A program made the position numbers and the translations under genes. Shown here one piece after another: positions 24,183 to 56,068 of a DNA stretch of 64,000 bases. The stretch is from NCBI GenBank assembly GCA_905612435.1, contig CAJQRZ010000010.1:1-64000 (forward strand). Reading direction: 5' to 3'. The notes below the pieces were generated by a model, which had not been told where the DNA came from, ran no database searches, and saw only the letters and a program-made list of their open reading frames with translations. Origin of the DNA: an uncultured Candidatus Pelagibacter sp. (GTDB taxonomy: Bacteria; Pseudomonadota; Alphaproteobacteria; Pelagibacterales; Pelagibacteraceae). Position 1 is the stretch's first letter; every line of letters starts with the position of its first letter.

Positions 24183-25802
24183 TTACATATTTCCATATTT
24201 TGGACCACCACTACCCTCAGGTGTTACCCAAGTGATATTTTGAGATGGTTCTTTTATATCACAAGTTTTGCAATGAATACAATTTTGAGAATTTATTACA
24301 AATTTATTTATATTATTTTCTCTTTGAATTTCATAAACCCCTGCTGGACAATATCTTTGTGCAGGTTCATCAAATTTCTCTAAAGTATAACTAATTGGTA
24401 AATTTGAATCCTTAAGTTGTAAATGAACAGGTTGATTATCTTCATGATTAGTGCCTGTTAAATATACCGAGCTAGTTTTATCAAAAGTTATTACTCCGTC
24501 AGGTTTAGGATAGTCAATTTTAGGCATTTCATTTGCAGATTTTAATGTTTCATGGTCTGCATGCTTGTGTTTAAGTGTTAAAGGTAACTTTCCCCTAAAT
24601 AAAATTTGATCTATACCAGTAAATATAATTCCAAGAATTAAACCCCAACTAAAACTTGGCTTTACATTTCTTGCTCTATAAAGCTCTTTGTAAACCCAGC
24701 TTTCTTTAAATAGTTTTTCATATACTGATAAATTATCTCTATGTTTAAAATGATAATTAATTGTGTCTGCAGCAATCATGCCAGTTTTCATTGCTGTGTG
24801 TGAACCTTTAATTTTAGGCATATTAAGAGTTCCAGCATCGCACCCAATAAGAAGAGCTCCTGGCATAAACATTTTAGGTAAACTTTGTAAACCACCTTCA
24901 ATTAAAGCTCTTGCTCCGTAAGAAATTCTTTTACCTCCTTCAATTATATTTTTTATTGATGGATGAGTTTTAAACCTTTGAAATTCATCAAATGGAGATA
25001 AATGCGGGTTTTTATAATCTAATCCAATAACATAACCTAAAAAAATTTGCTTATTTTCAGCATGATACATAAAGCTTCCACCATATGTATTATTATCTAG
25101 TGGCCACCCTACGGTATGCATAACCATTCCCTCTTCATGCTTTTTTTCATCAATTTCCCAAATTTCTTTAAAACCAATTCCATATTGTTGTGGATCTTTG
25201 CCTTCATCTAAATTAAATTTTTCAATAAGTTTCTTACCTAAATGTCCTCTGCAACCTTCTGCAAACACTGTAACTTTTCCCAATAAATCTATTCCTGGTT
25301 CAAAATTATCTTTTTGTTTTCCTTCTTTATCAATTCCCATATCTTGTGTCGCAACACCTTTCACTGACCCATCTTCGTTATATAAAATTTCAGAAGCAGG
25401 AAATCCTGGAAATATTTCTACTCCTAAGGCTTCCGCTTGTTTTGCTAGCCATCTACATAAATTAGCAAGACTTATAATATAATTTTTATGATTTTTTTGA
25501 ACTGAAGGTAATAACCACGTTGGCCAACTTAGTGATTTTGTTTTACCTAAAAATAAAAATTTTTCTTTTGTAACTTTAGTTTTGACTGGTGCATTTAATT
25601 CTTTCCAATTAGGAAACAGCTCGTCTAAAGCTTTAGTTTCAAAAATATTTCCACTTAATATATGTGCACCAATTTCTGAGGCTTTTTCTAATAAACAAAC
25701 ATTTAATTCTGGATCTAATTGTTTAAGTTTAATAGCCGTCGATAATCCAGAAGGACCGCCGCCGACGATTACCACATCATAATCCATTGCTTCTCTAGGC
25801 AT
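24183..25802 (-). CDS. etfD: Electron transfer flavoprotein-ubiquinone oxidoreductase
   Basis: A 539-residue flavo-iron-sulfur protein that passes electrons from reduced ETF to ubiquinone at the inner membrane. The FAD motif VGGGPSGLSTAIKLKQLDP starts at about residue 13, and the C-terminal ferredoxin-like cluster binds 4Fe-4S through CPAGVYE and the NCIHCKTCDIK cysteines. It ends the operon dimethylglycine dehydrogenase - etfB - etfA - etfD, giving a complete electron path in one transcript. An internal Met at residue 6 is an alternative start. Confidence 0.95.
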   Translation of the reverse strand: MPREAMDYDVVIVGGGPSGLSTAIKLKQLDPELNVCLLEKASEIGAHILSGNIFETKALDELFPNWKELNAPVKTKVTKEKFLFLGKTKSLSWPTWLLPSVQKNHKNYIISLANLCRWLAKQAEALGVEIFPGFPASEILYNEDGSVKGVATQDMGIDKEGKQKDNFEPGIDLLGKVTVFAEGCRGHLGKKLIEKFNLDEGKDPQQYGIGFKEIWEIDEKKHEEGMVMHTVGWPLDNNTYGGSFMYHAENKQIFLGYVIGLDYKNPHLSPFDEFQRFKTHPSIKNIIEGGKRISYGARALIEGGLQSLPKMFMPGALLIGCDAGTLNMPKIKGSHTAMKTGMIAADTINYHFKHRDNLSVYEKLFKESWVYKELYRARNVKPSFSWGLILGIIFTGIDQILFRGKLPLTLKHKHADHETLKSANEMPKIDYPKPDGVITFDKTSSVYLTGTNHEDNQPVHLQLKDSNLPISYTLEKFDEPAQRYCPAGVYEIQRENNINKFVINSQNCIHCKTCDIKEPSQNITWVTPEGSGGPKYGNM

Positions 25803-25825
25803 ATGTTAAATTTTTACAGTATTGA

Positions 25826-26779
25826 TTATCTTTGTATAGTATTTAATTTGTTCAATTCTTCTAATAATTGAGGAAGGGCTTCAAATAAATCAGCTTCTAA
25901 ACCATAATCTGCAATACTAAAAATTGGCGCCTCACCGTCTTTATTTATTGCAACAATTATTTTGCTCTCTTTCATTCCCGCCAAATGCTGAATCGCTCCA
26001 GAAATTCCAACTGCGATATATAAATCTGGCACAACAACTTTACCTGTTTGACCAACCTGATGTTCATTACTAATGTAACCAGCATCTACTGCAGCTCTTG
26101 AGGCACCAATAGCAGCATTTAATTTATCAGCAACTGCATTTATTAATTTAAAATTTTCTCCATTTTGCATTCCTCTACCCCCAGCTATTACAACTCTAGC
26201 AGTTCCAAGTTCCGGTCTATCTGATTTAACTTCTTCTCTTTTAATAAATTTTGATAATGAAAACTCTGCAGCAGCTTCAATTTTTTCTATTAGTGCTGAT
26301 CCTCCCGATGTTTCACAAGGCTCAAAAGATGTAGGTCTAATTGTTATACATTTTTTAGTATCAGTACTTTTAACAGTTGCTAATGCGTTTCCTGCATAAA
26401 TAGGTCTTAAAAATGTATCGGGAGAAATCACTTTAATAATATCACTTATTTGTGATGTATCTAAAAGAGCTGCAACCCTTGGCATTAAATTTTTCCCAAA
26501 TGTGTTTGCTGAGCTAACTATATGTGAATAATTTTCAGAAACCTTAACAACTAATGGAGCAAAGTTTTCAGCCAAATAATTTTCATAATGTGCAGCTTCA
26601 GCATGCAGTACTTTTTTAACAGCTGACATCTCAGATAAAGATTTAGCTATATCTCCACAGTTATTACCAATTAATAATACATGAAGATCTGTTTCTATTT
26701 GTGAGGCTGCTGTAATAGCATTGAATGTAAAAGGTTTTATCTCTTTATTATTGTGTTCTGCTATTAATAAAACTGACAT
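25826..26779 (-). CDS. etfA: Electron transfer flavoprotein alpha subunit
   Basis: A 317-residue FAD-binding subunit. The C-terminal FAD domain shows VVIAGGRGMQNGENF near 208, EHQVGQTGKVVVPDLYIAVG and SGAIQHLAGMKESKII near 265-280. With EtfB it accepts electrons from the dehydrogenase encoded two genes upstream and passes them to the quinone oxidoreductase. It begins on the last base of etfB. Confidence 0.95.
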   Translation of the reverse strand: MSVLLIAEHNNKEIKPFTFNAITAASQIETDLHVLLIGNNCGDIAKSLSEMSAVKKVLHAEAAHYENYLAENFAPLVVKVSENYSHIVSSANTFGKNLMPRVAALLDTSQISDIIKVISPDTFLRPIYAGNALATVKSTDTKKCITIRPTSFEPCETSGGSALIEKIEAAAEFSLSKFIKREEVKSDRPELGTARVVIAGGRGMQNGENFKLINAVADKLNAAIGASRAAVDAGYISNEHQVGQTGKVVVPDLYIAVGISGAIQHLAGMKESKIIVAINKDGEAPIFSIADYGLEADLFEALPQLLEELNKLNTIQR

Positions 26780-27528
26780 TATATTACTTTTGCCTCATTT
26801 TTAAGTTTATTAACCAATTCAGCAACACTAGTCACTTTAATTCCTGCTTTTCTTTTTGGTGGCTCTTCAACTTTAATTTGTTGTAACCTTGGTGTTATGT
26901 CAACACCTAAATCTGAAGCACTTAATACCTCCAAAGGTTTCTTTTTAGCTTTCATAATATTTGGAAGCGAAGCATATCTTGGCTCATTTAATCTTAAATC
27001 ACATGTAACAATTGCTGGAACATTAACTTCTATTGTTTCTAATCCTTCATCAATTTCTCTTGTTACTCTTAAAATTTTATCTTTAATTTCTATTTTTGAT
27101 GCAAATGTTGCTTGTGGCCAATTCAATAAAGCACTTAACATTTGACCTGTTTGATTACAGTCATCATCTATTGCTTGTTTGCCCATGAAAACTAAGTCAG
27201 GTTTTTCTTTATCAACAATTTTTTGTAAAACTTTTGCTACAGCTAATGGCTCAACAATTCCATCTACTTTCACTAAAATACCTCTGTCAGCACCAACTGC
27301 TAAGGCTTTTCTAACAGTTTCTTGTGATTTTTCTTCGCCAACTGTAATTGCGATAATCTCTGTTGCTTTACCTGCTTCTTTAATTTTTACAGCTTCTTCA
27401 ATAGCATTATCATCAGGGGGGTTACTTGACATTTTAATATTTTCTGTAACAACTCCACTTCCATCCTCTTTAACTCTTACTCGCACATTGTAATCAATTA
27501 CTCTTTTAACAGCGACTAATATTTTCAT
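26779..27528 (-). CDS. etfB: Electron transfer flavoprotein beta subunit
   Basis: A 249-residue AMP-binding ETF subunit. Typical segments are [20 protein letters not shown] at the start and the [20 protein letters not shown] recognition-loop signature near residue 180 that docks with partner dehydrogenases. It overlaps the dimethylglycine dehydrogenase stop by one base (TAATG) and etfA by one base, so three proteins are translationally coupled. Confidence 0.95.
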
Positions 27529-29960
27529 TATGCTTTCAATAAATTATTTTCAGGATCGTAAGGACTTTCATCCAATACTGTAGCATCGTACATTTTTCCT
27601 AAAATATCAATTTTCAATTTTTGACCAGTTGTCGCAATATTTGGGTTCACCATTCCTAATGCTATTGATTTGCCCAACCTAAATCCAAAATCTCCACCTG
27701 TGGCTCTTCCAACAACTTTTCCGTTATCATAAATTGGATTATTTCCCAGAACATCGGCATCATCTACATTGTGAATTTCCATAGTAACTAATTTATTATC
27801 AAAACCTTTTTCTCTCCATTTATTAAGTGCCTCAAGACCAATAAATTTACCTTTGTTAGGGTGGATAAATCTATCTAACCCTGACTCGTATGGTGAATAT
27901 TCAATTGATAACTCTGTTCCTATAAGTTTATAAGATTTTTCAAGCCTTAAGCTATTCATAGCTCTAATTCCATATGGCTTAAGACCCAAATCTTTACCTG
28001 CTTCCATTAATTTATCAAATATATGATTTTGATATTCAATTGGGTGATGAAGCTCCCAACCTAGCTCACCAACAAAGTTTACTCTCATTGCATTTACCGG
28101 TGCGTTTCCAATATTTACATTTTTTGCACTTAACCATTTAAAGTTTTCATTAGAAAAATCATCTTTTGAAACTTTTATCATTAACTCCCGAGCTTTTGGT
28201 CCCGATAGCACCAATACACCCATACTATTTGTTAAGTTTTCAAATTGAACACTCCCATCTTTTGGCATCCATTTGTGAATCCAGTCATGATCTAGTCTTT
28301 GATTGCCTCCTGCAGAAACTAAATAAAAACTACTTTCAGTTTCTCTCATTATCGTAAATTCAGAGTGAACACCTCCTTTTGTATTAAGAGCATGACACAA
28401 ACCAATTCTTCCTATTTTTTTTGGAAGTTTATTAGCTACTAAATAGTCTAAAAATTCTTCCGCTCCTGGGCCTTTAATTCTACATTTGGCAAATGCAGTC
28501 ATATCCAAAAGACCTACATTTTCTTTAACATTTTTGCATTCTTTTTCTATTGCCTTAAACCATTTAGATCTTCTAAAAGACCAATCATCTTTTTGTTCCA
28601 TTCCATCTATTGCAAAAAAGTTTGGTCTCTCCCAACCAAATTTTTGACCAAAAACTGCACCAAGATCTTTCATTCTATCATAACAAGGTGATGTTCTTAA
28701 TTCTCTAGCAGCACCTCTTTCTTCATCTGGATAATGAACTTTAAATACATGATTGTATGCTTCTTCATTTTTTTCTATTAAATATGATTTTGTTGCATAG
28801 TCACCAAATCTTCTTGGTTCAACACCAAGCATATCAATTGTTGGTTCACCATCTACTATCCATTCAGCAAGTTGCCATCCAGCTCCACCTGCGGCTGTAA
28901 TTCCAAAACTATGTCCTTCATTTATCCAAAAATTTTTTAGCCCCCATGCTGGACCCACTATTGGATTTCCATCGGGTGTATAACAAATTGCACCATTATA
29001 AACTTTCTTCACTCCAACTTCTCCAAAAGCAGGAACTCTATGAATTGCTCCTTCAATATGTGGAGCAAGCCTATCTAGATCTTCTTGGAACAATTCATAT
29101 TCAGAATCTTTAGTTGGCCCATCAACATAACATGCTGGAGCTCCCTCTTCATAAGGTCCTAAAATTAATCCACCGGCCTCTTCTCTCATATACCATCTGT
29201 TATCACTATCTCTTAAAACTCCCATTTCTGGTAAACCTTCTTTTTTCCTTTTTAAAATATCTGGATGTGGTTCAGTAACTATGTATTGATGTTCAACTGG
29301 TATTACTGGAATGTCTAAACCAACCATTTTTCCAGTTTGTCTTGCAAAATTTCCTGAACATGAAATTACATGTTCACACTCAATTACTCCTTTGTCAGTT
29401 TCAACAATCCATCCATCTTTAGTTTGTTTAATTCCAACTACAACTGTATTTCTATAAATCTCTGCACCCATATTTCTTGCACCCGTAGCCATTGCTTGTG
29501 TTAAGTCAGCAGGCTGAATATATCCGTCTTCTGGGTGTTGGATCGCTCCAACTAAATCTTCTGTATAACATAAGGGCCAAATTTCTTTTACTTGATCTGG
29601 AGTTAAAAACTTTACATCAACTCCTATTGTTTGAGCAACACCTGCATACTGATGATACTCATCCATTCTATCTTTGGTGCTTGCTAAACGAATATTTGAT
29701 ACGATACTAAAACCAACATTTTGTCCCGTCTCTTCCTCTAATTTTTTATAAAAATCGACCGCATATTTATGAAGTTGTCCAACTGAATAACTCATATTAA
29801 ATAAAGGCAGTAAACCAGCTGCATGCCAAGTTGATCCAGAAGTTAATTCTTTTCTTTCGACAAGAACAACATCAGTCAAACCCTTTTTTGCTAAGTGATA
29901 AAGAGCACTTACACCCACCACACCCCCACCTACAACAACTACTTTTGCTTTAGATTTCAT
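27528..29960 (-). CDS. Dimethylglycine dehydrogenase (FAD + GcvT-type)
   Basis: An 810-residue two-domain enzyme. The N-terminal FAD-binding DAO domain begins with [19 protein letters not shown] at about 10-28, followed by the covalent-FAD-type segment [15 protein letters not shown]. The second half (from about residue 430) is the GcvT-like tetrahydrofolate domain with [15 protein letters not shown] and [17 protein letters not shown]. Family members demethylate dimethylglycine or sarcosine and pass the methyl group to THF as 5,10-methylene-THF. The co-transcribed etf genes fit an ETF-linked dehydrogenase. Sarcosine as the main substrate remains possible. Confidence 0.85.
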
Positions 29961-33242: not shown

Positions 33243-33617
33243 TTACTCGAGCTTTCCATCTTCTCTCATTTTAGCTCTTATTTTAGTAGCTGATATTTTT
33301 TGTATTTCTTCAGATAAAACTATTTCTTCAATTTTGTAACCAACACCTCTTCCATAGCTAATATTTGTTATATTGGGTACCAACATAATTCTAAATCTAC
33401 CTTCAAATTCTGGATTTAATTTCTCTTCTATATTTTTTTTCACAGTTTCAAAATCAAAAGGATTATCATCAACTCCTTGCACATCTCTTATTTGAATACA
33501 AACTTGTCCTGTAATTTTTACAATTTCTTGAAATAAAGCATAATGTCCGTCATGAAATGGCTGCCATCTTCCTAACATTTGTGCTGTTGATTTTCTATTA
33601 TCCCATTCGTACGACAT
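33243..33617 (-). CDS. Cytidylyltransferase-like nucleotidyltransferase
   Basis: A 124-residue HIGH-type nucleotidyltransferase: LGRWQPFHDGHYALFQE at about 15-31 has the H-x-x-H (HDGH) ATP-binding motif, and ISATKIRAKMREDGK near residue 107 is the matching ISSTxIR signature. It would join an NMP moiety from ATP or CTP to a phosphorylated small molecule. It begins on the last base of a small kinase gene, which resembles an APS kinase. The small size excludes ATP sulfurylase; the substrate is unknown. Confidence 0.7.
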   Translation of the reverse strand: MSYEWDNRKSTAQMLGRWQPFHDGHYALFQEIVKITGQVCIQIRDVQGVDDNPFDFETVKKNIEEKLNPEFEGRFRIMLVPNITNISYGRGVGYKIEEIVLSEEIQKISATKIRAKMREDGKLE

Positions 33618-34024
33618 TATTTTATCTCCTTTAAAATTATTGGTGCCCAGTGTTTAGCATTCTGTGTTGTTACCTCACAATCAAATGTTTCAGGTTTTAC
33701 AAACATCTTGTTTGTGTCTTCAAAACGTCCTTCTTTTATTGTGTTAATCCAAATAATATGATCAGCTGGAAATAAATTTCTTGCTTCTAGTGTTGGACAA
33801 ATAAAGTCAGCGACCACATAATTTCCTTCATCTTTTAATTTTTTTGCTAAATCTGCCATTCTTTTTGCCTGCCTTAACCTTCCTGTTTCAGAAAAATCCC
33901 AATCATTTGCTGCTTTTCTCACTTCATCTGCATTAAGTCTTTTTGCGTTTAGCATTGGGGCGAGCTCATTCGCTAAAGTTGTTTTGCCAGAACCAGGTAA
34001 GCCCATTATTAATATTATTTTCAC
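33617..34024 (-). CDS. APS-kinase-like P-loop kinase
   Basis: A 135-residue P-loop protein with Walker A GLPGSGKTT at 8-16, then LNADEVRKAANDWDFS around 30-45, RLRQAKRMADLAKKLKDEG and VVADFICPTLEAR, a layout like adenylylsulfate kinase. It is shorter than true APS kinases (about 180-200 residues) and the usual DGDN motif is NADE, so the substrate may not be APS. It overlaps the nucleotidyltransferase gene by one base, and follows the methyltransferase gene by one base. Combined with its neighbour it could build an activated, nucleotide-linked compound. Confidence 0.65.
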   Translation of the reverse strand: MKIILIMGLPGSGKTTLANELAPMLNAKRLNADEVRKAANDWDFSETGRLRQAKRMADLAKKLKDEGNYVVADFICPTLEARNLFPADHIIWINTIKEGRFEDTNKMFVKPETFDCEVTTQNAKHWAPIILKEIK

Positions 34025-34025
34025 C

Positions 34026-34655
34026 TTATTTTATAACCTCAAAAAGTCCTAGCCAAGCATTGACATCTTTACTAGCAATATACTCTGATTTAAAAAATTC
34101 AATTTTTTTCCATTTATTTTTTTTCTCTAATTCGTCTATTTTTTTATCAAATCCATATTCTTGATGAATTCCTTCATTGATAGTAAAGCAAATTAAACCT
34201 TTATTTTTTGTAATTCTGACAAATTCATCTAAGGCATTTGGTTTTACATGAGCATATGTAAAGGTTCCAACACACGTAACTGCATCATAAAAACTATCAT
34301 CGACTTTGATAGATTGATTTAAATCTATTCTATTTAATTTTTTATATAAATTTTTAGGAACTGAATCTAATAATGTTTGAGATAAATCTGCTCCGTGAAA
34401 ATTATTATAGCCAAATTTTTTTAATTCTTTTCCAACAAGACCAGTTCCACATCCAGCATCAAATATTAATATATCTTTATTTTCAGTATATTTTTTAAAA
34501 GTATTAACCGTTTCTTTTGGCCCTGTATAATCCCAATCAATCATATCTTTATTATATTTATCTTTGTCTCCCCAATCGTCATAAAATTCCATTACTTCGT
34601 CTGTTGTTTTCAGTTTATAAATTGGAATTTTATTTCCTATATCTTTTTGGGCCAT
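34026..34655 (-). CDS. SAM-dependent methyltransferase
   Basis: A 209-residue class I methyltransferase. Motif I is DILIFDAGCGTGLVGKELKKFG near 60-80 (FDAGCGTGLVG), and YDAVTCVGTFTYAHVKPNAL is motif IV. It starts five bases after the Rieske-type oxygenase gene ends and stops one base before the small kinase gene. The substrate is unknown; the operon suggests it works on the same small molecule as the flanking enzymes. Confidence 0.78.
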   Translation of the reverse strand: MAQKDIGNKIPIYKLKTTDEVMEFYDDWGDKDKYNKDMIDWDYTGPKETVNTFKKYTENKDILIFDAGCGTGLVGKELKKFGYNNFHGADLSQTLLDSVPKNLYKKLNRIDLNQSIKVDDSFYDAVTCVGTFTYAHVKPNALDEFVRITKNKGLICFTINEGIHQEYGFDKKIDELEKKNKWKKIEFFKSEYIASKDVNAWLGLFEVIK

Positions 34656-34660
34656 TTATT

Positions 34661-35860
34661 TCATCCTTTGGTTAAATTATTAGCTATCCATTTATGAAAT
34701 TGGTGTGTTGAATTATCCATTACTGGTGAAAAATTACCACCATTATATATTGGAGAATCTCTTCCTTCTTGCATACCTTCAATTGCTTTAATATCCTCAG
34801 TCATTACTTCTTTCCAAAATTTTGCATTTTTTTTTCTCATACTTTTTAGTTCTTTAGAATTAGCACTTTCTTCTCCAATATAATAGATTTCTAAGTGTTC
34901 TTTAGTTTCATTAATTGAAATAGGTTCTAGCCAGAATGTATAAAAATGATCTATATGTAAACCAATCATTACATTTGGAAATAAAGCAATATATTCTGCT
35001 TTTTTCTTTAAATCTTTTGGCCAATTTGGAAAATTATTAAATATTTTATTTTCTTTAACGGGTCGGCTATATTTATCACTTCCCTGTCCTGCAAACCTAT
35101 TTGGCAATCCCTGAATATGATAATGGTCACTGATATTTGATATTTTATTTAATTCAGGATGAATTGTTGGCAAGTGATAACTCTCACAATAATTTTCAAT
35201 TGCAAACTTCCAATTACTTTTTACATCTAAATTAAAGTATCCATAATCATTTGAATGTACCAGTAAATTTTGATCTTCTTTAGATATAAATTTTGACCAC
35301 CTATCTTCTAATGGCTTTATATATTCATCAAATTCTATTTCATTATTGTTAATATTAATAAAAACCATATCCATCCAAACTTTGGATCTAGCTTCTTTTA
35401 AGTTACTTTTTGATTTATCAAATTTTCTAGTTTCATGAATGTTAAGCCCTCCAATATGAGGTGTGGCTACTAATTTTCCCTCAAGATCATATGCCCAAGA
35501 ATGATACGGGCATCTTAAAACGTTTTTCAGAGAGCAAGGCTCGTCTAAAAGCTTAAATCCTCTATGGCTACAAACATTATGAAATACTCTTATTTTTTTT
35601 TCCTTATCTCTAATTATGATCAAGGGAATACCTAGTAGATTGTATGGCTTAGCGTCTCCAGGGTGAGGCACTGAATTTCCCACACCAATTACAACCCATT
35701 TATTTTTAAAAACCCACTCTCTCTCAAACTTTAAATATTCTGAGCTTATATAACACTCATTTGGTAGTCCATGCGCTTTATCTATTGGGTTATTGACTGT
35801 CTTTATCTTTTCTATATCTAGAATTTTTGACAGAGCAAGATTCTTGGAATTTTTAAGCAT
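34661..35860 (-). CDS. Rieske non-heme iron oxygenase, alpha subunit
   Basis: A 399-residue oxygenase with an N-terminal Rieske 2Fe-2S domain (VCSHRGFKLLDEPCS then LRCPYHSWAYDLEG: the C-x-H and C-x2-H ligands) and a catalytic domain with the mononuclear iron motif ENYCESYHLPTIHPEL. The frame is open from a TTG at 35896, but ATG 35860 removes a hydrophobic stretch that is unlike the family, so it is preferred. Related enzymes demethylate glycine betaine, carnitine and stachydrine. Glycine betaine demethylase activity would feed the dimethylglycine and sarcosine enzymes in this window, but this is inference; the reductase partner is not adjacent. Confidence 0.78.
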   Translation of the reverse strand: MLKNSKNLALSKILDIEKIKTVNNPIDKAHGLPNECYISSEYLKFEREWVFKNKWVVIGVGNSVPHPGDAKPYNLLGIPLIIIRDKEKKIRVFHNVCSHRGFKLLDEPCSLKNVLRCPYHSWAYDLEGKLVATPHIGGLNIHETRKFDKSKSNLKEARSKVWMDMVFININNNEIEFDEYIKPLEDRWSKFISKEDQNLLVHSNDYGYFNLDVKSNWKFAIENYCESYHLPTIHPELNKISNISDHYHIQGLPNRFAGQGSDKYSRPVKENKIFNNFPNWPKDLKKKAEYIALFPNVMIGLHIDHFYTFWLEPISINETKEHLEIYYIGEESANSKELKSMRKKNAKFWKEVMTEDIKAIEGMQEGRDSPIYNGGNFSPVMDNSTHQFHKWIANNLTKG

Positions 35861-35959
35861 TAAAAAAATTATCACGAGCAAAATTTTTGGCAACAAATTT
35901 CGTTATCCACAGGATGAATTTCTTTGACAGGCTTTTTAAAATAGATAAATATCTGCAAA

Positions 35960-36688
35960 ATGAACTTTTCACTTGAGGTGGGTCCTCACACAGATCTTGA
36001 TACTTTACCATCAGTAAAAGATGTTTATGTTACTATGCTTCCAGGTGGAGATTATAAAGAGACAGCTAAAAAATCAGCTGATTTAGTAAAAAAAGGATTT
36101 AATCCAGTACCACATTTTCCAGCAAGATCAATTGCTAATGAAGCTCAACTTAAAGATTATGTTTCAAGGTGCAAAGATGTTGGCGCTAAACAAGCTTTGG
36201 TAATTGGAGGAAGTAGAGACCCAATTGGAAAATTTGATAGTTCTAAACAAATACTTGAAACAGGATTTTTTGATGGAATTAGAATAGGAATAGCGGGACA
36301 CCCTGAAGGCAGTCCAGATATGTCCGATACAGAATTAGAAAAAGCTATGATAGATAAAAAACCTTACGCTGACTATATTGTAACTCAGTGGTTACTTGAC
36401 AGTCAACCTATTGTAGATTTCATTTCTAAGCAGTCAGTACCAGTGCATGTAGGAATTACTGGGCCAATGAAAATATCTAGCTTAATAAAATTTGCTAATA
36501 TCGTAGGGGCAAAAAATTCTATAAACTTTCTTAAGTCTAATTTTAGTAAGGCGTTAGATTTATTGAAACCTAAAGACCCTAATGAATTAATTGGGAAAGT
36601 GAATGAGTTTACAGATAACTTCCACATTTATACATTCGGCGGCTTGAAGGAAACTAACAAGTGGTTGAAGGAGAACGGTTATGTCTAA
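35960..36688 (+). CDS. Methylenetetrahydrofolate reductase-like protein
   Basis: A 242-residue member of the MetF/MTHFR barrel family, shorter than the 290-300 residues of typical MetF. FSLEVGPHTDLDTLP is the start; FNPVPHFPARSIANE near 47-61 and ALVIGGSRDPIGKFDS near 81-96 match conserved MetF positions, and the HVGITGPMKISSLIKFA segment follows. It overlaps the DmdA/GcvT-like gene downstream by eight bases. A probable role is to oxidise 5-methyl-THF made by the demethylase to 5,10-methylene-THF. Confidence 0.78.
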   Translation: MNFSLEVGPHTDLDTLPSVKDVYVTMLPGGDYKETAKKSADLVKKGFNPVPHFPARSIANEAQLKDYVSRCKDVGAKQALVIGGSRDPIGKFDSSKQILETGFFDGIRIGIAGHPEGSPDMSDTELEKAMIDKKPYADYIVTQWLLDSQPIVDFISKQSVPVHVGITGPMKISSLIKFANIVGAKNSINFLKSNFSKALDLLKPKDPNELIGKVNEFTDNFHIYTFGGLKETNKWLKENGYV

Positions 36689-38039
36689 TGAATTTGACTA
36701 TACTAAACTAAAACACATTACTTCAGTTGATCAGTCAGATCGTGAAGTACCATATAACTTAAGACAGAGTGGACCTACAAAAGTTGAAATGTTAATTTCA
36801 ACAAGAGTAAGAAAATCTCCATACTGGCATTTATCAATGGAAGCTGGCTGTTGGAGAGCAACTGTTTACAATCGTATTTATCATCCAAGAGGATATGTAA
36901 AACCAGAAGATGGTGGAGCAATGGTAGAATATAATGCAATTGTTAATCACGTTACAATGTGGAATGTTGCTGTTGAAAGACAAATTAGAGTTAAAGGTCC
37001 AGATGCAGAAAAGTTTACAGACTACGTTATAACTAGAGATGCAACCAAGATCTCACCAATGAGAGCAAGATATGTAATTTTATGTAATGCTTATGGTGGG
37101 GTTTTAAATGATCCAATTCTTCTTAGAATTTCTAAAGATGAGTTTTGGTTCTCACTATCAGACTCAGAAATAGGTATGTACCTTCAAGGTGTTAATGCTG
37201 ATGGAAGATTTGATTGTACAATCGAAGAAATTGATGTGTGTCCTGTACAAATCCAAGGACCTAAATCTAAAGCACTAATGAAAGACTTACTTGGTGATCA
37301 AGTTGATTTGGATAGCATGCCTTTCTACGGTTTAGCTGAAGTTAAAGTCGGTGGAAGAAGTTGTGTTATTTCACAATCTGGTTTTTCAGGAGAAGCTGGA
37401 TACGAAATATACTTAAGAGAGGCAACTAAATACGCTGATGATATGTGGAATGCGGTTCTTGCTGCAGGGAAAAAACATAACTTAATGGTTATTGCTCCTG
37501 CTCACCATAGAAGGATTCAAGCTGGAATTCTCTCATGGGGACAAGATATGGATGATCAGCATAACCCTTACCAATGTAACCTTGGATACCAAATTTCATT
37601 ATCTGGCAAAGGAGAATGGAATAAAAAAGCTGACTACGTAGGTAAAACTGCATTAGAAAAAATGGGAGCTGATATCAAAGGTGGAAAAAAACCATACAAA
37701 CTTCAGTTAGTCGGATTTGTATTGGGTGGAAAACCTATTGAAGAGTATGCTCCTGATTTTTGGTTGGTTTCTCCTGAGAATGGTGGGGATCCAGTTGGAT
37801 TTATAACATCTCCTTGGTATCATCCCGAGAAGAAGCAAAATATTGCTATGGGATATGTACCATTTGATGGAACTTTAAATGCTAACGGATTTCCAAAAGG
37901 TAAAGCTGGAACTAAATACAAAGTTCATTTACCAGCAGAATACTCAGACACTCCAGGAACGCCTGTGGATGCAGTAATAGTGGATATTCCATTTAAAGAA
38001 TCTTTTAACGCAAATACTAGAGAAGTTGTAAAAGGCTAA
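36681..38039 (+). CDS. GcvT/DmdA-family tetrahydrofolate-dependent demethylase
   Basis: A 452-residue GcvT-fold protein. The run MWNVAVERQIRVKGPDAEKF near 92-111, GGVLNDPILLRISKDEFWFS near 135-154 and SQSGFSGEAGYEIYL near 232-246 resembles DMSP demethylase DmdA and related tetrahydrofolate methyltransferases more than classical glycine-cleavage T protein. A Shine-Dalgarno (AAGGAG) lies within the MetF-like gene, whose end overlaps this start. It would remove a methyl group from a donor and give methyl-THF. DmdA proteins are usually about 370 residues, and this one has a longer C-terminus, so a different donor is likely. Confidence 0.75.
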   Translation: MSNEFDYTKLKHITSVDQSDREVPYNLRQSGPTKVEMLISTRVRKSPYWHLSMEAGCWRATVYNRIYHPRGYVKPEDGGAMVEYNAIVNHVTMWNVAVERQIRVKGPDAEKFTDYVITRDATKISPMRARYVILCNAYGGVLNDPILLRISKDEFWFSLSDSEIGMYLQGVNADGRFDCTIEEIDVCPVQIQGPKSKALMKDLLGDQVDLDSMPFYGLAEVKVGGRSCVISQSGFSGEAGYEIYLREATKYADDMWNAVLAAGKKHNLMVIAPAHHRRIQAGILSWGQDMDDQHNPYQCNLGYQISLSGKGEWNKKADYVGKTALEKMGADIKGGKKPYKLQLVGFVLGGKPIEEYAPDFWLVSPENGGDPVGFITSPWYHPEKKQNIAMGYVPFDGTLNANGFPKGKAGTKYKVHLPAEYSDTPGTPVDAVIVDIPFKESFNANTREVVKG

Positions 38040-49145: not shown

Positions 49146-49733
49146 TTAAATGTTTTTATATCCAAATTCCAAGCATGCATCAGTTAAAGAGTGATGAAGT
49201 GACTCACCAAAACTTCTAAGAGTAAATATTCTTATTTTATTAGGACTATCATTAATCATGTCTATGGACACTGTTATTCCATTAAAAACAGAATTTACAG
49301 AATTACCCTTTAACAACTTGTTAAAGTTAAAAGGACATCCTTTTTTTAATACTTCTATTGAATTTTTTCCCTCGATTTCAATTATAGCTCTAGAATGAGA
49401 AAGATCCGTAACTGCAAAATCACTTTCGCGTAATATTTGATTAATAGTTTTTAATAAATCTTTTTTTATTGATATTAGAAGCCAATTATTGGGCCCAAAC
49501 CATAAAATTCTAGTTTCATTATTACAATTTACTTTAAGAACTTCGTTATTAAGATGAAGTCCATCTATATTAATATCTCTTAAAGATATGTTAGAACTTT
49601 TATACTGAACTATTTGTAAAATTAATAGATTTTTTATTTCTGAAATTTTTATTAAGTTTTGTTTATTTTTATTTTCGTAATCTCCAAAAAAACCTTTTTG
49701 ATGAATATTCTCTAATGCTGATTTAAATGTCAT
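49146..49733 (-). CDS. soxG: Sarcosine oxidase gamma subunit
   Basis: A 195-residue GcvT-related subunit that shapes the tetrahydrofolate/methylene pocket of heterotetrameric sarcosine oxidase. WFGPNNWLLIS near 79-89 and DLSHSRAIIEIEGKNSIEVLKKG near 110-130 are SoxG-like. It overlaps soxA by four bases and is the last gene of soxBDAG. An N-methylglutamate dehydrogenase subunit is the alternative. Confidence 0.88.
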   Translation of the reverse strand: MTFKSALENIHQKGFFGDYENKNKQNLIKISEIKNLLILQIVQYKSSNISLRDINIDGLHLNNEVLKVNCNNETRILWFGPNNWLLISIKKDLLKTINQILRESDFAVTDLSHSRAIIEIEGKNSIEVLKKGCPFNFNKLLKGNSVNSVFNGITVSIDMINDSPNKIRIFTLRSFGESLHHSLTDACLEFGYKNI

Positions 49734-52726
49734 GATCTAACTCTTTCTCCTTTAGGGTCAACATAGTGGGATGAAACAATTTCGACAGCAATTGATTTAT
49801 TTTTTAATGGTGAAAGTGCAAATAATTTTTGACCTATCATATTTTTTCCATCACGAAGGATAGCTAATGAAAAAGGATTGTCATGTTCGACGCTCCAGCA
49901 TGATGCTGATATATAACCTAACTTAGGATTCGGAAGTTTTGCATTTGCATCTTTAACTAAATGTGATCCTTCAGGAATACTTGTTTTTTTATCAATTGGG
50001 ACTACACCTACAACTTTCTGTCGATCTTCTACTGTAAAAGCTTTTCTGTTTAAAGATCTTTTTCCAATAAAATCTTTCTTTTTACTAACTAATCCTTCTA
50101 AAGAATTATCATAAGGTATAGTTCTTCCATCCAATTCCGAACCAGCCACATGTCCCATTTCAATTCTTAAAGTAGATAAAGCTTCAGTTCCATAAGGTTG
50201 TATCTCAAATTCTTTTCCTATTTCAATTATTTTTTTCCACATAAAATTTCCATTATCAGATCCAACATTAACTTCATAAGCAAGTTCACCTGAAAAAGAG
50301 ATTCTAAAAATTCTAGCAAAAATTCCAAATAGATTTCCCTCTGTATACCCCATAAATGGAAGACCTTCATTTGAAACATCTAGGTTTGGAAACAATTTTT
50401 GTAATAGCTTTCTAGAGTTAGGTCCGGCAATTGCTGCTCCTGCCCACTGTTCTGTTGTTGAAACAACATTTACATTTAATTCTGGCCACACAACTTGAAT
50501 GTAGTATTCAAGATGAGATAGAACATTAGCTGCTTGTGCGGTTGTTGTTGTCATATGATAGTGATTTTCTGAAATTCTAGTGGTTGTTCCATCATCCATT
50601 ACAATTCCATCTTCTCTTAACATCACACCATATCGAGCTTTTCCAACTGGTAATTTTAACCAAGCATTTGTATAAACTCTATTTAACAATTCTGCTGCAT
50701 CTGGTCCTTTAATGTCTATTTTACCTAAAGTTGTAACATCACAAACTCCAACATTTTTTCTAACGTTAGTTGCCTCTCTCTTAGATCCTTCAAATAGAGT
50801 TTCATTTCCTTGTTTATAATATCTTGGTCTTACCCAAACACCTGCGTCAACAAAAACTGCATTGCTTTCATTATGCCATTTATGTATTGGTGATTTTCTA
50901 GTAGGCTTTGAATGTTTTCCCACTTCTCTACCAACTATAGCACCAATTGTTACAGGAGTATATGGAGGTCTAAATGTTGTGTGGCCGATCTCTGGTACTA
51001 TTTTGTTTTCTATATTTGAAACAAGTTGCAAGCCATTAAGGTTGCTAGTTTTTCCTTGATCAGTTGCCATACCTAAAGTTGTGTATCTTTTAACATGTTC
51101 TATTGATCGGTAACCTTCTTTTAAGGCTATTTCTACATCAGAAACAGCTACATCATTCTGAAAGTCTAAAAATCTTTTATAATTTTTTCCTTTTGGAAGT
51201 GGAACGCACCAAAATTTATCATGTTCGGTTGATTTCTTTTCAACAACAGAAGGAACTGAAATTTTATTATCATTTTTAGTGATTTTTTTTGATAGCTCAT
51301 ATCCCATATCAAATGAATTTTTTAAAGTTTCCTCTAGAGTAAATATTCCATTTGCAGAACCAACGGTTGTCTCTTCTTGCTTTGATTGTCCTGGCACAAA
51401 AGCATCTATATCTTTATTAAACTTGGTTTTATTTCCTGATTGAGAGGCTAGATGTATTGTTGGAGTCCAAAAACCTGAAACACATATACAGTCACAATTA
51501 ATATTTTCTATTATACTAAGTTCTTTTTTATCTTCTGAAATTTTCGCAATTTCTGCTGATCTTACTTTTTTGTAACCTTTTGCTGCAACTACCACGTAAG
51601 AAAATTTAATATCAATATCTAAATTTTTTGCTTCATTTATTATTTCTGATTTAGGATTTTTACGTGTATCTAATATAACTGGATCAACACCATTTTTTTT
51701 AAATTCTACTGCTGTTTCGTAACCGCTATCATTATTTGTAAATATTAAAGGTTTTTTTCCTACTAAAACCCCATAAACTTTTAAATATTCTTTAGCAGCA
51801 GATGACAATATCACGCCAGGCGTATCATTATTTCCAAATATCAAAGGTCTTTCTATTGAGCCTGAAGAAATAATAACCTCTTTTGCTCTAATATACCAAA
51901 GTCTTTCTTTTGGACTGTATTTTTTTGTTTTAGGTAAATGGTCACTTATTCTTTCTGACATCACTAGCATGTTGTGGTCATAATAACCAAAAACTTGTGA
52001 TCTGTTTTTTATTATCACGTTAGGCATCTCTTTTAGTTCGGCTATAATACTTTCTGCCCATTCTTTTCCAGTTTGATTTCCAATATTTACTTCGCTAGTT
52101 AATAAAGTTCCGCCAAATCTTGGTTTATCTTCGGCTAATATTACTCTAGCTCCATTTTTTGCTGCCGCGTATGTGCTTGCTAAACCTGAGGGGCCTGATC
52201 CTGCAACTAATAAATCACAATATTCGTACTTATGTTCATATCTTTCTTTATCATGTTTTGTTGACGCAACTCCAAATCCAGCTGCTTTTCTAATAAAAGG
52301 TTCATAAACTTTATGCCAAAAACTTTTTGGCCACATAAATGTTTTATAATAAAATCCTGCTGGAAGAAATATTTTTAAAAAATTATTTATAGCTCCAATA
52401 TCAAAGTTTACATTTGGCCAACAATTGACACTCGTTGCTTCTAATCCTTCAAAAAGTTCCTGCTCAGTGGTTTTTATATTAGCTACACTCTCACCATTTC
52501 TATATAATTGAACTATAGCGTATGGCTCGTCAACGCCTGATCCGAAAAAGCCTCTTGGTCTATGGTATTTAAAGCTTCTTCCAATAAGATGAACTCCATT
52601 AGCAAGCAAAGCAGATGCTATTGTATCTCCTTCATAACCAAAATAACTTTTTCCATTAAATTTAAATGAGATTTTTTTATCTCTATTAATTAATCCAATA
52701 TTTTTTAGTCTAAAATTTTGTGACAT
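49730..52726 (-). CDS. soxA: Sarcosine oxidase alpha subunit
   Basis: A 998-residue subunit. It has an N-terminal 2Fe-2S-like fold domain (FNGKSYFGYEGDTIASALLANG), a central FAD/NAD domain with AGSGPSGLASTYAAAKNGAR near 165-184, and a C-terminal GcvT domain with SGELAYEVNVGSDNG. The enzyme oxidises sarcosine to glycine and passes the C1 unit to THF. It lies between soxD and soxG, with three-base spacing to soxD. Confidence 0.93.
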   Translation of the reverse strand: MSQNFRLKNIGLINRDKKISFKFNGKSYFGYEGDTIASALLANGVHLIGRSFKYHRPRGFFGSGVDEPYAIVQLYRNGESVANIKTTEQELFEGLEATSVNCWPNVNFDIGAINNFLKIFLPAGFYYKTFMWPKSFWHKVYEPFIRKAAGFGVASTKHDKERYEHKYEYCDLLVAGSGPSGLASTYAAAKNGARVILAEDKPRFGGTLLTSEVNIGNQTGKEWAESIIAELKEMPNVIIKNRSQVFGYYDHNMLVMSERISDHLPKTKKYSPKERLWYIRAKEVIISSGSIERPLIFGNNDTPGVILSSAAKEYLKVYGVLVGKKPLIFTNNDSGYETAVEFKKNGVDPVILDTRKNPKSEIINEAKNLDIDIKFSYVVVAAKGYKKVRSAEIAKISEDKKELSIIENINCDCICVSGFWTPTIHLASQSGNKTKFNKDIDAFVPGQSKQEETTVGSANGIFTLEETLKNSFDMGYELSKKITKNDNKISVPSVVEKKSTEHDKFWCVPLPKGKNYKRFLDFQNDVAVSDVEIALKEGYRSIEHVKRYTTLGMATDQGKTSNLNGLQLVSNIENKIVPEIGHTTFRPPYTPVTIGAIVGREVGKHSKPTRKSPIHKWHNESNAVFVDAGVWVRPRYYKQGNETLFEGSKREATNVRKNVGVCDVTTLGKIDIKGPDAAELLNRVYTNAWLKLPVGKARYGVMLREDGIVMDDGTTTRISENHYHMTTTTAQAANVLSHLEYYIQVVWPELNVNVVSTTEQWAGAAIAGPNSRKLLQKLFPNLDVSNEGLPFMGYTEGNLFGIFARIFRISFSGELAYEVNVGSDNGNFMWKKIIEIGKEFEIQPYGTEALSTLRIEMGHVAGSELDGRTIPYDNSLEGLVSKKKDFIGKRSLNRKAFTVEDRQKVVGVVPIDKKTSIPEGSHLVKDANAKLPNPKLGYISASCWSVEHDNPFSLAILRDGKNMIGQKLFALSPLKNKSIAVEIVSSHYVDPKGERVRS

Positions 52727-52728
52727 AA

Positions 52729-52995
52729 TTAGATATCTTCATTAGCTTTTAGTGTTTTAAATATTTCGTGGGTTGCTGTATCTCTTTGAACTTTAAACCA
52801 CTGTCTACACCCTGAGATATGTTGCCATAACTCCAAATGTTTTCCTCTTAAACTTTTTCTAAGATATACAAAATTATCCCACTCTAAATCTGAAATTTCT
52901 TTATTTAACTCTGGTCTTTTGACGCTCGCATCACCACCATATGCAAATTCGTTTTGCGATCTCATACCACAATGTGGACATTTAATATGTAGCAT
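52729..52995 (-). CDS. soxD: Sarcosine oxidase delta subunit
   Basis: An 88-residue zinc-binding subunit: CPHCGMRSQNEFAYGGDAS at the start and HISGCRQWFKVQRDTATHEI near 60-79 provide the Cys/His ligands. The pattern YGGDA-KRPEL matches SoxD rather than the N-methylglutamate dehydrogenase homologue. It is placed between soxB and soxA, and starts on the base before soxB ends. Confidence 0.92.
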   Translation of the reverse strand: MLHIKCPHCGMRSQNEFAYGGDASVKRPELNKEISDLEWDNFVYLRKSLRGKHLELWQHISGCRQWFKVQRDTATHEIFKTLKANEDI

Positions 52996-54252
52996 TTAAG
53001 AAATCCAAGTTTTTGTTCCAAGTCCTTTTTCATCAAGCAAGTGACCTGTATTAAATCTATTTAAACTATATCCTGCATTTAATTTGTGAACTCTATCTTG
53101 TGCTATTGTGTGTGCAAAAGTCCACCCTGATGCTGGAGTTGCTTTAAAACCACCATAACACCATCCACAATTTAAATATAATCCTCCAATATGTGTTTTA
53201 TCTATGATTGGTGATCCGTCCATAGACATATCCATTATACCTCCCCAAGTTCTAAGCATTTTTAGTTTACTAAGAAAAGGCATCATTGCAATTCCTTCTG
53301 TTAAAACATGTTGAAGTGTTGGCAAGTTTCCTCTTTGAGCATAACTATTATATCCGTCCAAATCTCCACCCATCACCATTTCACCTTTGTCTGATTGACT
53401 AATATAAAAATGACCTGCTCCAAAAGTCACTACTCTATCTAAAACTGGTTTTACTGGCTCTGAAACGCATGCTTGTAAAAGATGAGTTTCTACTGGTATT
53501 GTCATATTTAGTTTTTCAGCTAAAATATTAGTACTACCAGCAACACATAAACCAATTTTTTTAACTTTAATATCTCCTCTTGAAGTTCTAACTCCATTAA
53601 TTTTTCCACTGGATATATCAAATCCTGTTACTTCGCAGTTTTGAATAATATCTACTCCCATTGAATCTGCTTGGCGTGCATAACCCCATGCCACGGCATC
53701 ATGTCTTGCGGTACCTGCACTTGGTTGCATCAATGCACCAAAAATAGGAAATCTTACATTGTCTGAAAAATCTGCCATTGGAATAATTTCTTTTACCTGC
53801 TCTCTATTTAAGAGAACTGCGTCAATACCATTTAAAAGCATAGAGTTGCCTCTTCTTGTATAAACATTCATTTGGGCATCTGAGTGCGCGAGGTTAATAA
53901 TGCCTCTTGGAGAAAACATCACATTATAATTTAAATCCTGACTCATTTTTCTCCATAAATTCATTCCAAATTCACTAAACAATGCATTGTCATCGTACAT
54001 ATAGTTAGACCTAATAATAGTCGTATTTCTCCCTACATTTCCACCGCCGATCCATCCTTTTTCAATAATCGCTACATTTTTAATATTATGTTCTTTAGCA
54101 AGATAATATGCTGTTGCTAACCCGTGTCCACCTCCTCCAATAATAACAACATCATACTCCTTTTTTGGAGTTGGGTCTTTCCAAGCAAGGTCCCAATCTT
54201 GATGCTTTGAGAAAGCATTTTTTATTAAGTTAAATACTGAATACTTTTGCAT
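52996..54252 (-). CDS. soxB: Sarcosine oxidase beta subunit
   Basis: A 418-residue FAD subunit. The Rossmann motif VVIIGGGGHGLATAYYLAKE is near 34-53, and the covalent-flavin His region is near the VGRNTTIIRSNYMYD stretch; the C-terminal segment LYLNCGWCYGGFKATPASGW is typical. It is the first gene of the sox operon and diverges from fhs with a 130-base gap. Together with SoxA, D and G it yields glycine, hydrogen peroxide and 5,10-methylene-THF or formaldehyde. Confidence 0.94.
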   Translation of the reverse strand: MQKYSVFNLIKNAFSKHQDWDLAWKDPTPKKEYDVVIIGGGGHGLATAYYLAKEHNIKNVAIIEKGWIGGGNVGRNTTIIRSNYMYDDNALFSEFGMNLWRKMSQDLNYNVMFSPRGIINLAHSDAQMNVYTRRGNSMLLNGIDAVLLNREQVKEIIPMADFSDNVRFPIFGALMQPSAGTARHDAVAWGYARQADSMGVDIIQNCEVTGFDISSGKINGVRTSRGDIKVKKIGLCVAGSTNILAEKLNMTIPVETHLLQACVSEPVKPVLDRVVTFGAGHFYISQSDKGEMVMGGDLDGYNSYAQRGNLPTLQHVLTEGIAMMPFLSKLKMLRTWGGIMDMSMDGSPIIDKTHIGGLYLNCGWCYGGFKATPASGWTFAHTIAQDRVHKLNAGYSLNRFNTGHLLDEKGLGTKTWIS

Positions 54253-54382: not shown

Positions 54383-56068
54383 ATGAACGAAATTAAATCA
54401 GATATTCAAATAGCCAGAGAAGCTAAAATGCAACCTATAAATGATATTTTAGCAAAGATAAATGTACCAGATGAAAGTACAGCTTTTAGCCCAATGGGCA
54501 GACATATAGCAAAAATTAGCTTAGAATATCTAGACACTTTAAAAGATAAGCCAGATGGAAAACTTGTTTTAGTAACAGCCATCACACCCACACCAGCTGG
54601 TGAAGGTAAAACCACAACTTCAGTTGGTTTAAATGATGGATTAAATAAAATTGGAAAAAAATCGATTGTCTGTTTAAGAGAGCCAAGCCTTGGACCTTCT
54701 TTTGGAATGAAGGGTGGCGCTGCAGGTGGTGGGTACGCTCAGGTAGTTCCGATGGAACAAATTAATTTACACTTTACTGGAGATTTTCATGCAATAACTT
54801 CTGCTCATAATTTACTGTCAGCTTTAATTGATAACCATATTTATTGGGGAAATAAATTAGCTATAGATGTCAGAAGAATTGTTTGGAAAAGAGTAATGGA
54901 TATGAATGATCGTTCTTTAAGATCAATAAATATAAACCTAGGTGGTGTAGCAAATGGTTTTCCAAGAGAAGATGGTTTTGACATAACTGTTGCATCTGAA
55001 ATTATGGCAATTTTTTGCTTATCAAATGATTTAGGAGATTTAGAAAAAAGAATAGGAAATATTACAATTGCATATACTAGAGATAAAAAACCTGTTTACG
55101 CTAAAGATCTAAAGGCTCACGGTCCAATGACTGTATTATTAAAAGATGCAATCAGGCCTAATGTAACCCAAACATTAGAGAACAATCCTGCAATTATTCA
55201 TGGTGGTCCATTTGCAAATATCGCACATGGATGTAACTCGGTAATTGCAACTAAAACTGGATTAAAACTTGCTGACTACGTTGTTACAGAAGCAGGCTTC
55301 GGTGCTGACTTGGGTGCTGAAAAATTTCTTGATATAAAATGTAGAAAGTCAAATTTAAAACCAAGCTGCGTTATTATTGTTGCAACTATAAGAGCATTAA
55401 AAATGCACGGTGGAGTAGCTAAAGATGAACTCAAAACAGAAAATGTGGAAGCTTTAAAAAAAGGTTTGGTTAATCTTCAAAGACATATTGAAAATGTTAA
55501 AAAATTTAGCTTACCAGTTGCAGTGGCTATTAATCATTTTATTAAAGATACAGATAATGAGGTGAAAGCTTTAATAGAATTTTGTGATGGGATTGGAGTT
55601 AAAGCAAGTCTTTGTACTCACTGGGCAAATGGTGGTGAAGGAACAAAGGAACTAGCAAGTCATGTAGTTGAGTTATGTGAAAAAAATGATAATAAATTCA
55701 AATTCTTATATGAAAGCAAAACTCCTCTATTTAAAAAAATAGAAACAATTGCAAAAGAGATTTATAGAGCAGATGAAGTTATTGCTGATACAAAAATCAG
55801 AGATCAGCTAAAAAGCTTTGAGGATGCGGGTTATGGAGATTTTCCAATTTGTATCGCAAAAACCCAGTACAGTTTTTCAACGGATCCTAGTTTAAAGGGT
55901 GCTCCTACAGGACATGTTTTACCCATAAGAGAAATTAGACTTTCTTCAGGTGCAGAATTTATTGTTGTGGTCTGTGGAGCGGTAATGACTATGCCAGGGT
56001 TACCAAGAGTTCCTGCGGCAGACTCTATTAAGTTAAATAAAGATGGTGAAATAGAAGGTTTATTTTAA
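54383..56068 (+). CDS. fhs: Formate-tetrahydrofolate ligase
   Basis: A 561-residue enzyme that interconverts formate, THF and ATP with 10-formyl-THF. The P-loop [10 protein letters not shown] is near 70-79, and [20 protein letters not shown] near 99-118 is the family signature, with [20 protein letters not shown] later. A good Shine-Dalgarno (AGGAG) precedes ATG 54383. Divergent from soxB; it would recover or release formyl units from sarcosine and TMA oxidation. Confidence 0.96.

Follow-up and report, generated by a model that had tools for sequence, protein, structure and literature searches.

Methyl transfer of the DmdA type requires an onium donor and gives 5-methyltetrahydrofolate (5-methyl-THF). 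The step from glycine betaine to dimethylglycine, which is also the net step proposed below, is made by the BHMT, GbcAB and MtgB-corrinoid routes, in which homocysteine is the acceptor, oxygen is required and the enzyme is corrinoid-linked, respectively; to our knowledge, none of these three enzymes has the GcvT fold. In SAR11 bacteria, the first demethylation of glycine betaine has been credited to BHMT (PMC3160333), and a proposal in PMC12478193 has SAR11 rely on this enzyme alone. In Sphingobium SYK-6, the THF-dependent demethylase LigM cleaves off aryl O-methyl groups and has as its partner an MTHFR homologue (S6MTHFR) that oxidises 5-methyl-THF (PMC12585457); the same article refers to Yu et al. 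2025 (Commun. Biol.) for numerous gene sets of this kind. For Ca. P. ubique HTCC1062, Sun et al. 2011 noted the metF neighbour of SAR11_1265, found the latter to be close to DmdA and suggested, as a speculation, a role in the second demethylation of dimethylsulfoniopropionate (DMSP) (PMC3160333). This SAR11_1264/SAR11_1265 pair, metF beside a DmdA-related aminomethyltransferase, corresponds, as matched by description only, to two overlapping genes that we analysed in a stretch of 64,000 nucleotides (hereafter, the window) from an uncultured Candidatus Pelagibacter sp. (assembly GCA_905612435.1, contig CAJQRZ010000010.1, positions 1 to 64,000). The gene pair is thus already in print, and what is new here is its proposed assignment to glycine betaine, a common osmolyte, in an abundant ocean bacterium.

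The upstream gene of the pair (35960..36688, plus strand, ATG start) encodes an MTHFR/MetF-like protein of 242 amino acids and the downstream gene (36681..38039, plus strand, ATG start) a methyltransferase of the DmdA/GcvT superfamily of 452 amino acids. By their open reading frame coordinates, the two overlap by 8 bases (36681..36688), as given in a preliminary description of this DNA, whose labels 'DmdA-like' and 'short MetF' were also correct, with homology far above chance. Based on family chemistry and comparative genomics, we consider it likely that the 452-residue protein is a corrinoid-free, THF-dependent glycine betaine demethylase and that its MTHFR partner oxidises 5-methyl-THF. The MTHFR-like gene lies directly upstream of the DmdA-like gene in all 29 SAR11 loci examined for this arrangement (L007-L035, drawn from 82 Pelagibacteraceae carriers of the family). 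The 8-base overlap, taken from the first usable start to the MTHFR-like stop, recurs in 27 of these loci, and in the remaining two there is an in-frame ATG 6 bases further upstream. The two proteins are probably translated together.

With regard to its family, the 452-residue protein belongs to GCV_T (Pfam PF01571; 140.1 bits versus a cut-off of 25.6, E 9.9e-41), but stays below the cut-offs of the NCBIfam models for DmdA (NF009133; 227.8 bits, E 1.9e-67, cut-off 410), LigM/DesA (NF047885 and NF047633; 33.9 and 40.7 bits, cut-offs 580 and 800) and GcvT (145.5, 124.6 and 111.5 bits, cut-offs 300, 235.85 and 459). Its best sequence match in the PDB is P. ubique DmdA (3tfh, E 1.3e-41), and it is 30% identical over residues 39-310 to the DmdA encoded elsewhere in the same genome, which exceeds the cut-off of the DmdA model with 601.7 bits. 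A GCV_T_C-like region at residues 342-417 scores 25.4 bits, just below the cut-off of 25.9. The 'C-terminal extension' emphasised in the preliminary description consists mostly of this region and a conserved tail; an N-terminal extension with the motif DQSDR..P.NLRQ.G is equally or more characteristic of the protein. In an alignment of 44 family members, in which 132 columns are invariant and 68 more are at least 90% identical, the block DQS.R..P.NLRQ.G is among these conserved columns. The AlphaFold model of the protein is weak (mean predicted local distance difference test score (pLDDT) 62.1, predicted template modelling score 0.56), so no pocket was derived from it. A fold search with this model returned P. 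ubique DmdA at the top (Z 19.1, root-mean-square deviation (rmsd) 7.2), tied with GcvT; since an rmsd of about 7 means a loose fit, the search confirms the superfamily only.

The 242-residue partner scores 20.9 bits with the Pfam MTHFR model, but matches the MTHFR of Sphingobium SYK-6 (7xg9) with an E value of 3e-31 by sequence. Its AlphaFold model (pLDDT 82.6) has 7xg9 as best fold match as well (E 2.7e-16, TMq 0.81). By sequence and predicted fold, the protein is thus a divergent MTHFR homologue with 7xg9 as its nearest solved relative. By analogy with LigM and S6MTHFR, we propose that the window pair likewise joins a THF-dependent demethylase to an MTHFR homologue that oxidises 5-methyl-THF. 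The comparison to the LigM/MetF pairing drawn in the preliminary description therefore stands for the MTHFR-like protein, which has the partner of LigM as its closest relative of solved structure, but a special tie of the large protein to LigM does not: the latter is a distant relative (33.9 bits, compared to 227.8 for DmdA), which places the likeness in the module and not in ancestry.

In a tree of the family together with DmdA, DmdA-like sister genes, trimethylamine N-oxide demethylase, SoxA, GcvT and dimethylglycine dehydrogenase domains, all 31 rows of the family fell into a single clade (support 99/99) separate from DmdA, whereas the two DmdA rows clustered with 11 sister rows (support 95/92). 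Together with the DmdA score below cut-off, this supports the earlier suggestion of a demethylase, probably THF-dependent, that is distinct from classical DmdA. Several outgroup branches are long, so that the deeper joins are unsure, and one protein was entered twice (L045 and L134, the latter being a sister-family locus). Trp58, Gln232, Phe235, His275, Arg277, Trp286, Gln298, Tyr303 and Trp379, among others, are present in 31/31 family rows and in neither of the two DmdA rows, although some of the family-invariant residues absent from DmdA also occur in sister rows; all 51 aligned rows share Glu242 of GYEIY. PMC7487153 names Trp171 (W171) as key for the contact with DMSP. If the numbering is shifted by a constant 26, which fits E178 and Y180 but not S99, this residue presumably corresponds to W197 of 3tfh, and its position is occupied by Phe235 in all 31 family rows. 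The tryptophan is not an absolute mark of DmdA, since an annotated DmdA row (Marinovum) has a tyrosine there.

Among 147 Pelagibacteraceae genomes, 85 had a match to the large protein at E<=1e-60, and 82 of these carry the family proper; the other three (G105, G116 and G122) were dropped because they have only a sister gene of 38-39% identity. In 398 genomes of the phylum, the same threshold gave 11 matches, namely the own genome, five proteins of 65-68% identity and five sister genes of 36-43% identity. Haloarchaeal plasmid copies (H1-H16) are 49-56% identical, with 91-100% of the query covered. Among genome contigs, a scan gave 588 relatives, of which the best 80 comprise 37 haloarchaeal ones and otherwise mainly SAR86, other gammaproteobacteria, roseobacters and other alphaproteobacteria, plus two contigs of metagenome-assembled genomes titled Bacteroidota (L103 and L111); L103 falls inside the SAR86 group of the tree and may thus be misbinned. 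The family clade is accordingly common to SAR11, haloarchaea, SAR86, HIMB59-type alphaproteobacteria and roseobacters. A second haloarchaeal subgroup, 66-70% identical to the H. marismortui copy, was seen in G634, G654, G689, G694, G685 and G608, and a lone plasmid copy 49.8% identical to the window protein lies near an MFS transporter (L179:10154-11335); both may differ in substrate. On two Roseobacter plasmids (L145:8971-13049 and L177:7974-12121), sister genes of 35-37% identity stand behind an Lrp-type regulator and are followed by genes for OsmC, an enoyl-CoA hydratase and an acyl-CoA synthetase, perhaps another DMSP-like demethylation route.

The neighbours of the family gene were counted in 41 haloarchaeal loci, 49 loci of other bacteria (L086-L134, including the sister-family locus L134) and eight SAR11 loci, many of which are cut by contig ends; the counts are raw, without a background rate from random loci. 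An MTHFR gene was found in 36/41, 18/49 and 8/8 of these loci, respectively, and a dimethylglycine dehydrogenase-like gene, so labelled from its domain make-up as no NCBIfam model for such a dehydrogenase was met, in 19/41, 24/49 and 3/8. BCCT transporter genes occurred in 15 haloarchaeal and three bacterial loci and in no SAR11 locus. GbdR (5/49), SoxA (8/49) and choline dehydrogenase (2/49) genes were found in the other bacteria, and in none of the haloarchaeal or SAR11 loci. The clearest run, in a marine alphaproteobacterial metagenome-assembled genome (L116), has on one strand soxB, soxD, soxA, an open reading frame of 172 amino acids, the dehydrogenase gene, the MTHFR gene and the family gene. 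A locus titled SAR86 (L087) has a BCCT transporter gene followed by the dehydrogenase and family genes; in a gammaproteobacterial genome (L132, G320) the order is family gene, MTHFR and Fhs, with GbdR, L-serine ammonia-lyase and dehydrogenase genes in addition; and in L101 the dehydrogenase and a choline dehydrogenase over cut-off are near the family gene. Four haloarchaeal plasmid regions all contain the MTHFR gene and, between them, genes for dimethylglycine oxidase-type FAD-dependent oxidoreductases, GlyA, Fhs, FolD, threonine ammonia-lyase, formate dehydrogenase and BCCT. When representative labels were checked with NCBIfam models, choline dehydrogenase, L-serine ammonia-lyase, Fhs, SoxB and SoxD were over their cut-offs. 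GbdR was over its cut-off of 480 in L132 (500.8 bits) and below it in L110 (384.8 bits), the SoxA of L116 was just below cut-off, and the BCCT protein of L087 exceeded the general BCCT cut-off but not the betaine-specific one.

The co-occurrence with the dehydrogenase was assessed in whole genomes of two groups. In 145 genomes of Halobacteria, the family was found in 30 and the dehydrogenase, at E<=1e-60, in 42; the latter was present in 30/30 carriers compared to 12/115 non-carriers (Fisher 1e-21), or in 23/30 compared to 12/115 with a floor of at least 45% identity (p 3e-12). The two genes are at most 30 kb apart on one contig in 24/30 carriers of this group. In the 147 Pelagibacteraceae genomes, a dehydrogenase orthologue was found in 77/82 carriers and 9/65 non-carriers (p 6e-25), counting 86 of 90 matching genomes after four with only 37-43% paralogues (G016, G116, G121 and G122) were dropped. 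Genomic linkage and co-occurrence with dimethylglycine breakdown are thus observed, though not in every locus.

BHMT (at least 70% identity) was not associated with the dehydrogenase in Pelagibacteraceae: the latter was present in 26/41 genomes with and 60/106 without BHMT (p 0.58), and for any BHMT-like gene the numbers were 35/50 and 51/97 (p 0.05). Of the 77 Pelagibacteraceae genomes in which pair and dehydrogenase occur together, 45 gave no BHMT match at E<=1e-80. Considering only the 29 SAR11 carriers that are at least 90% complete, the dehydrogenase was present in all 29 and BHMT was not found in 20. Five genomes of at least 90% completeness (G004, G010, G052, G070 and G079) have BHMT and neither the pair nor the dehydrogenase. 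Overall, BHMT is patchy in Pelagibacteraceae (50/147 at E<=1e-80; 13/53 of the genomes at least 90% complete, of which 47, including all carriers, were individually identified), which is at odds with its standing as the glycine betaine enzyme of SAR11. In three genomes (G042:C8:38107-43962, G116:C13:4160-9436 and G092:C16:59-5175), BHMT stands with a dehydrogenase paralogue of 42-43% identity and a DmdA-like sister of 39-40%, and in two others (G002:C1:68525-71971 and G008:C1:121953-125414) a second BHMT-like gene, 50-52% identical to the first, lies beside a 37-38% dehydrogenase paralogue.

Other enzymes for the first step were sought in 24 carrier genomes hand-picked from several lineages. 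GbcA was over cut-off in one of these (G528), MttB/MtgB (PF06253) was found in five and SAR11-type BHMT in four, the window genome among the latter. None of the three was found in 14 of the 24 carriers, including 8/9 haloarchaea; the BHMT comparison, made by tblastn, omits one weak S-methyl_trans row of G216, which is one of these 14, and one row of G557. With the GbcA model, 14/24 carriers gave matches at E<=1e-10, all of them below cut-off except that of G528. DmdA itself was over cut-off in 4/24 carriers and in none of the nine haloarchaea.

In the proposed mechanism, the 452-residue protein would move an onium methyl group directly onto N5 of THF in the manner of DmdA, converting glycine betaine and THF to dimethylglycine and 5-methyl-THF in a redox-neutral step. 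The MTHFR-like partner would run in reverse, like its SYK-6 relative, and oxidise 5-methyl-THF to 5,10-methylene-THF, which would pull the methyl transfer forward and give reducing power; that an MTHFR homologue adjoins a gene whose DmdA-type chemistry would yield 5-methyl-THF was counted in favour of this scheme. The 5,10-methylene-THF would then enter THF-linked one-carbon (C1) oxidation by Fhs, FolD and formate dehydrogenase. A candidate gene for formate-THF ligase (Fhs) is present in the window (54383..56068, plus strand; Pfam FTHFS, E 1.7e-269). Dimethylglycine would be converted to sarcosine by the nearby dehydrogenase-like protein, a FAD-GcvT fusion of 810 amino acids (27528..29960, minus strand; Pfam DAO, FAO_M, GCV_T and GCV_T_C). 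The electrons would pass to an electron transfer flavoprotein (ETF), whose beta-like (26779..27528, adjoining the dehydrogenase gene) and alpha-like (25826..26779) subunits are encoded on the same strand, and on to an ETF:ubiquinone oxidoreductase-like protein (ETF-QO; 24183..25802, minus strand; Pfam Fer4_ETF_QO and ETFQO_UQ-bd). Sarcosine would finally be turned into glycine by a heterotetrameric sarcosine oxidase, for which the window has, all on the minus strand, SoxA (49730..52726; TIGR01372, 1289.3 bits, cut-off 1164 exceeded), SoxB (52996..54252; TIGR01373, 664.7 bits, cut-off 529.45 exceeded) and a SoxG-like gene (49146..49733; TIGR01375, 80.1 bits, below the cut-off of 143.95). These candidate genes span about 32 kb (24183-29960, the pair at 35960-38039, 49146-54252 and 54383-56068), with many other genes interspersed. 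The donor thus need not stay unknown, as it had in the preliminary description: the gene neighbourhoods and the co-occurrence favour glycine betaine. HTCC1062 oxidises methyl groups of glycine betaine to CO2 (PMC3160333), in agreement with the scheme, but since this strain also has bhmT, the oxidation does not decide for the pair.

It seems fairly likely to us that the family represents a fourth way of glycine betaine demethylation, a direct, corrinoid-free and oxygen-free passage of the methyl group to THF by a DmdA-related enzyme with an MTHFR working in reverse, which is common to SAR11, SAR86, other marine alphaproteobacteria, roseobacters, haloarchaea and perhaps Bacteroidota, and that the pair, and not BHMT, is the main catabolic entry in SAR11 as well as the missing first step in haloarchaea. 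Dimethylglycine oxidase-like genes have been noted in the latter (PMC3102087), and the pair would supply the step before them. In that case, cells would gain energy from the methyl groups of glycine betaine through C1 oxidation with no need for homocysteine, cobalamin or oxygen, and glycine betaine demethylation would be undercounted in surveys based on bhmt or mtgC. We found no description of a THF-dependent, corrinoid-free glycine betaine demethylase in the open-access text of PMC, a search that most subscription papers lie outside.

Several observations weigh against this assignment. The MTHFR-like protein is short, and its Pfam score does not reach the threshold of 24. The glutamate of NP[FY]E.G, kept in 19/20 other superfamily rows, is Q298 in 31/31 family rows, and in 30/31 N300 takes the place of a glycine that is otherwise mostly conserved; as these changes are family-wide, folate binding may differ. 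The p-values of the co-occurrence, down to 6e-25, treat genomes as independent despite their shared descent, and for 7/30 haloarchaeal carriers the identity of the best dehydrogenase match does not exceed 37-39%. No dehydrogenase, SoxA, BCCT, BetA or GbdR marker was found in 10/41 haloarchaeal, 23/49 bacterial and 5/8 SAR11 loci, many loci being truncated by contig ends and 11 of the 23 bacterial ones being titled SAR86. A BHMT-like gene is present in 9/29 SAR11 carriers of at least 90% completeness, and the window genome itself (1.1 Mb assembly, 71.5% complete) has BHMT (G000:C3). Conversely, G088, G105 and G146 (96-98% complete, 20-30 contigs) have the dehydrogenase without the pair. The other betaine-like operons of some SAR11 genomes, with BHMT and a dehydrogenase paralogue and with a sister DmdA-like gene, could do the same demethylation step.

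Some of these points would also fit a demethylase of the same THF-dependent type that acts on another onium donor or on several of them, such as proline betaine, beta-alanine betaine or a broad range, with products that reach the dehydrogenase. The family-wide active-site substitutions do not name a substrate, second haloarchaeal copies of 66-70% identity are present in several genomes, and neither the available surroundings of plasmid copy H14 nor many other loci contain betaine genes, so that substrates may vary within the family. However, GbdR, BCCT, choline dehydrogenase, dimethylglycine dehydrogenase and sarcosine oxidase as neighbours form a glycine betaine set, and we regard such a donor as unlikely. 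The removal of the second methyl group of DMSP, from methylmercaptopropionate, as guessed by Sun et al. 2011 for SAR11_1265, appears quite improbable in comparison. DmdA over cut-off in so few carriers speaks against a DMSP-bound role, the recognised neighbours are betaine genes, the tryptophan for DMSP contact is replaced by Phe235 throughout the family, and a thioether is a poor methyl donor. These points outweigh, in our opinion, the kinship with DmdA and the adjacent metF (PMC3160333), the joint 5- to 10-fold fall of SAR11_1264 and 1265 under some conditions of a sulfur-limitation study (PMC5069961) and a DmdA relative at 333-384 bits, below the cut-off of 410, in G320 and the SAR86 genomes G556-G559.

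If the protein were instead an accessory factor of C1 transfer, serving the dehydrogenase or the handling of folate and not carrying out the first demethylation, this could account for the tight co-occurrence with an enzyme that should itself yield methylene-THF and for the odd substitutions in the folate motif. We give this very little credence, as the dehydrogenase has a GCV_T domain of its own and a methylene-THF role leaves the adjacent MTHFR unexplained. A canonical DmdA paralogue using DMSP itself is the least credible reading of all: the identity of 30% to the own DmdA and the best PDB sequence and fold matches to P. ubique DmdA would agree with it, but not the separate clade nor the score below the DmdA cut-off in a genome whose own DmdA reaches 601.7 bits. 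Like DmdA (3tfh), the putative glycine betaine demethylase would have a GcvT fold and transfer an onium methyl group to THF; unlike DmdA, it has an extra N-terminal region, betaine instead of DMSP neighbours, Phe235 at the DMSP tryptophan and invariant Trp286, Gln232 and Gln298. Homarine was dropped as a candidate donor because no such gene cluster turned up in one literature search, and LigM-type aromatic O-demethylation was rejected on score and context.

Divergently from the pair, the window encodes a Rieske oxygenase (34661..35896, minus strand), which was rejected as a true GbcA with 120 bits compared to the cut-off of 670 (NF058607). Relatives of it stand beside the pair in 4/8 SAR11 loci and another, 42% identical, near the L110 copy; the Rieske protein of H. 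marismortui is only 23% identical, which gives no support for a common role in Bacteria and Archaea. Together with genes for a S-adenosylmethionine methyltransferase, a small APS-kinase/AAA-like kinase and a small nicotinamide-nucleotide adenylyltransferase-like protein, the oxygenase gene forms a run of four (33243-35896, minus strand) with gaps of at most 5 bases, which looks like an operon. Another gene (32094-33185, minus strand) encodes a 363-residue protein with many glycine-rich repeats that are MORN-like by eye.

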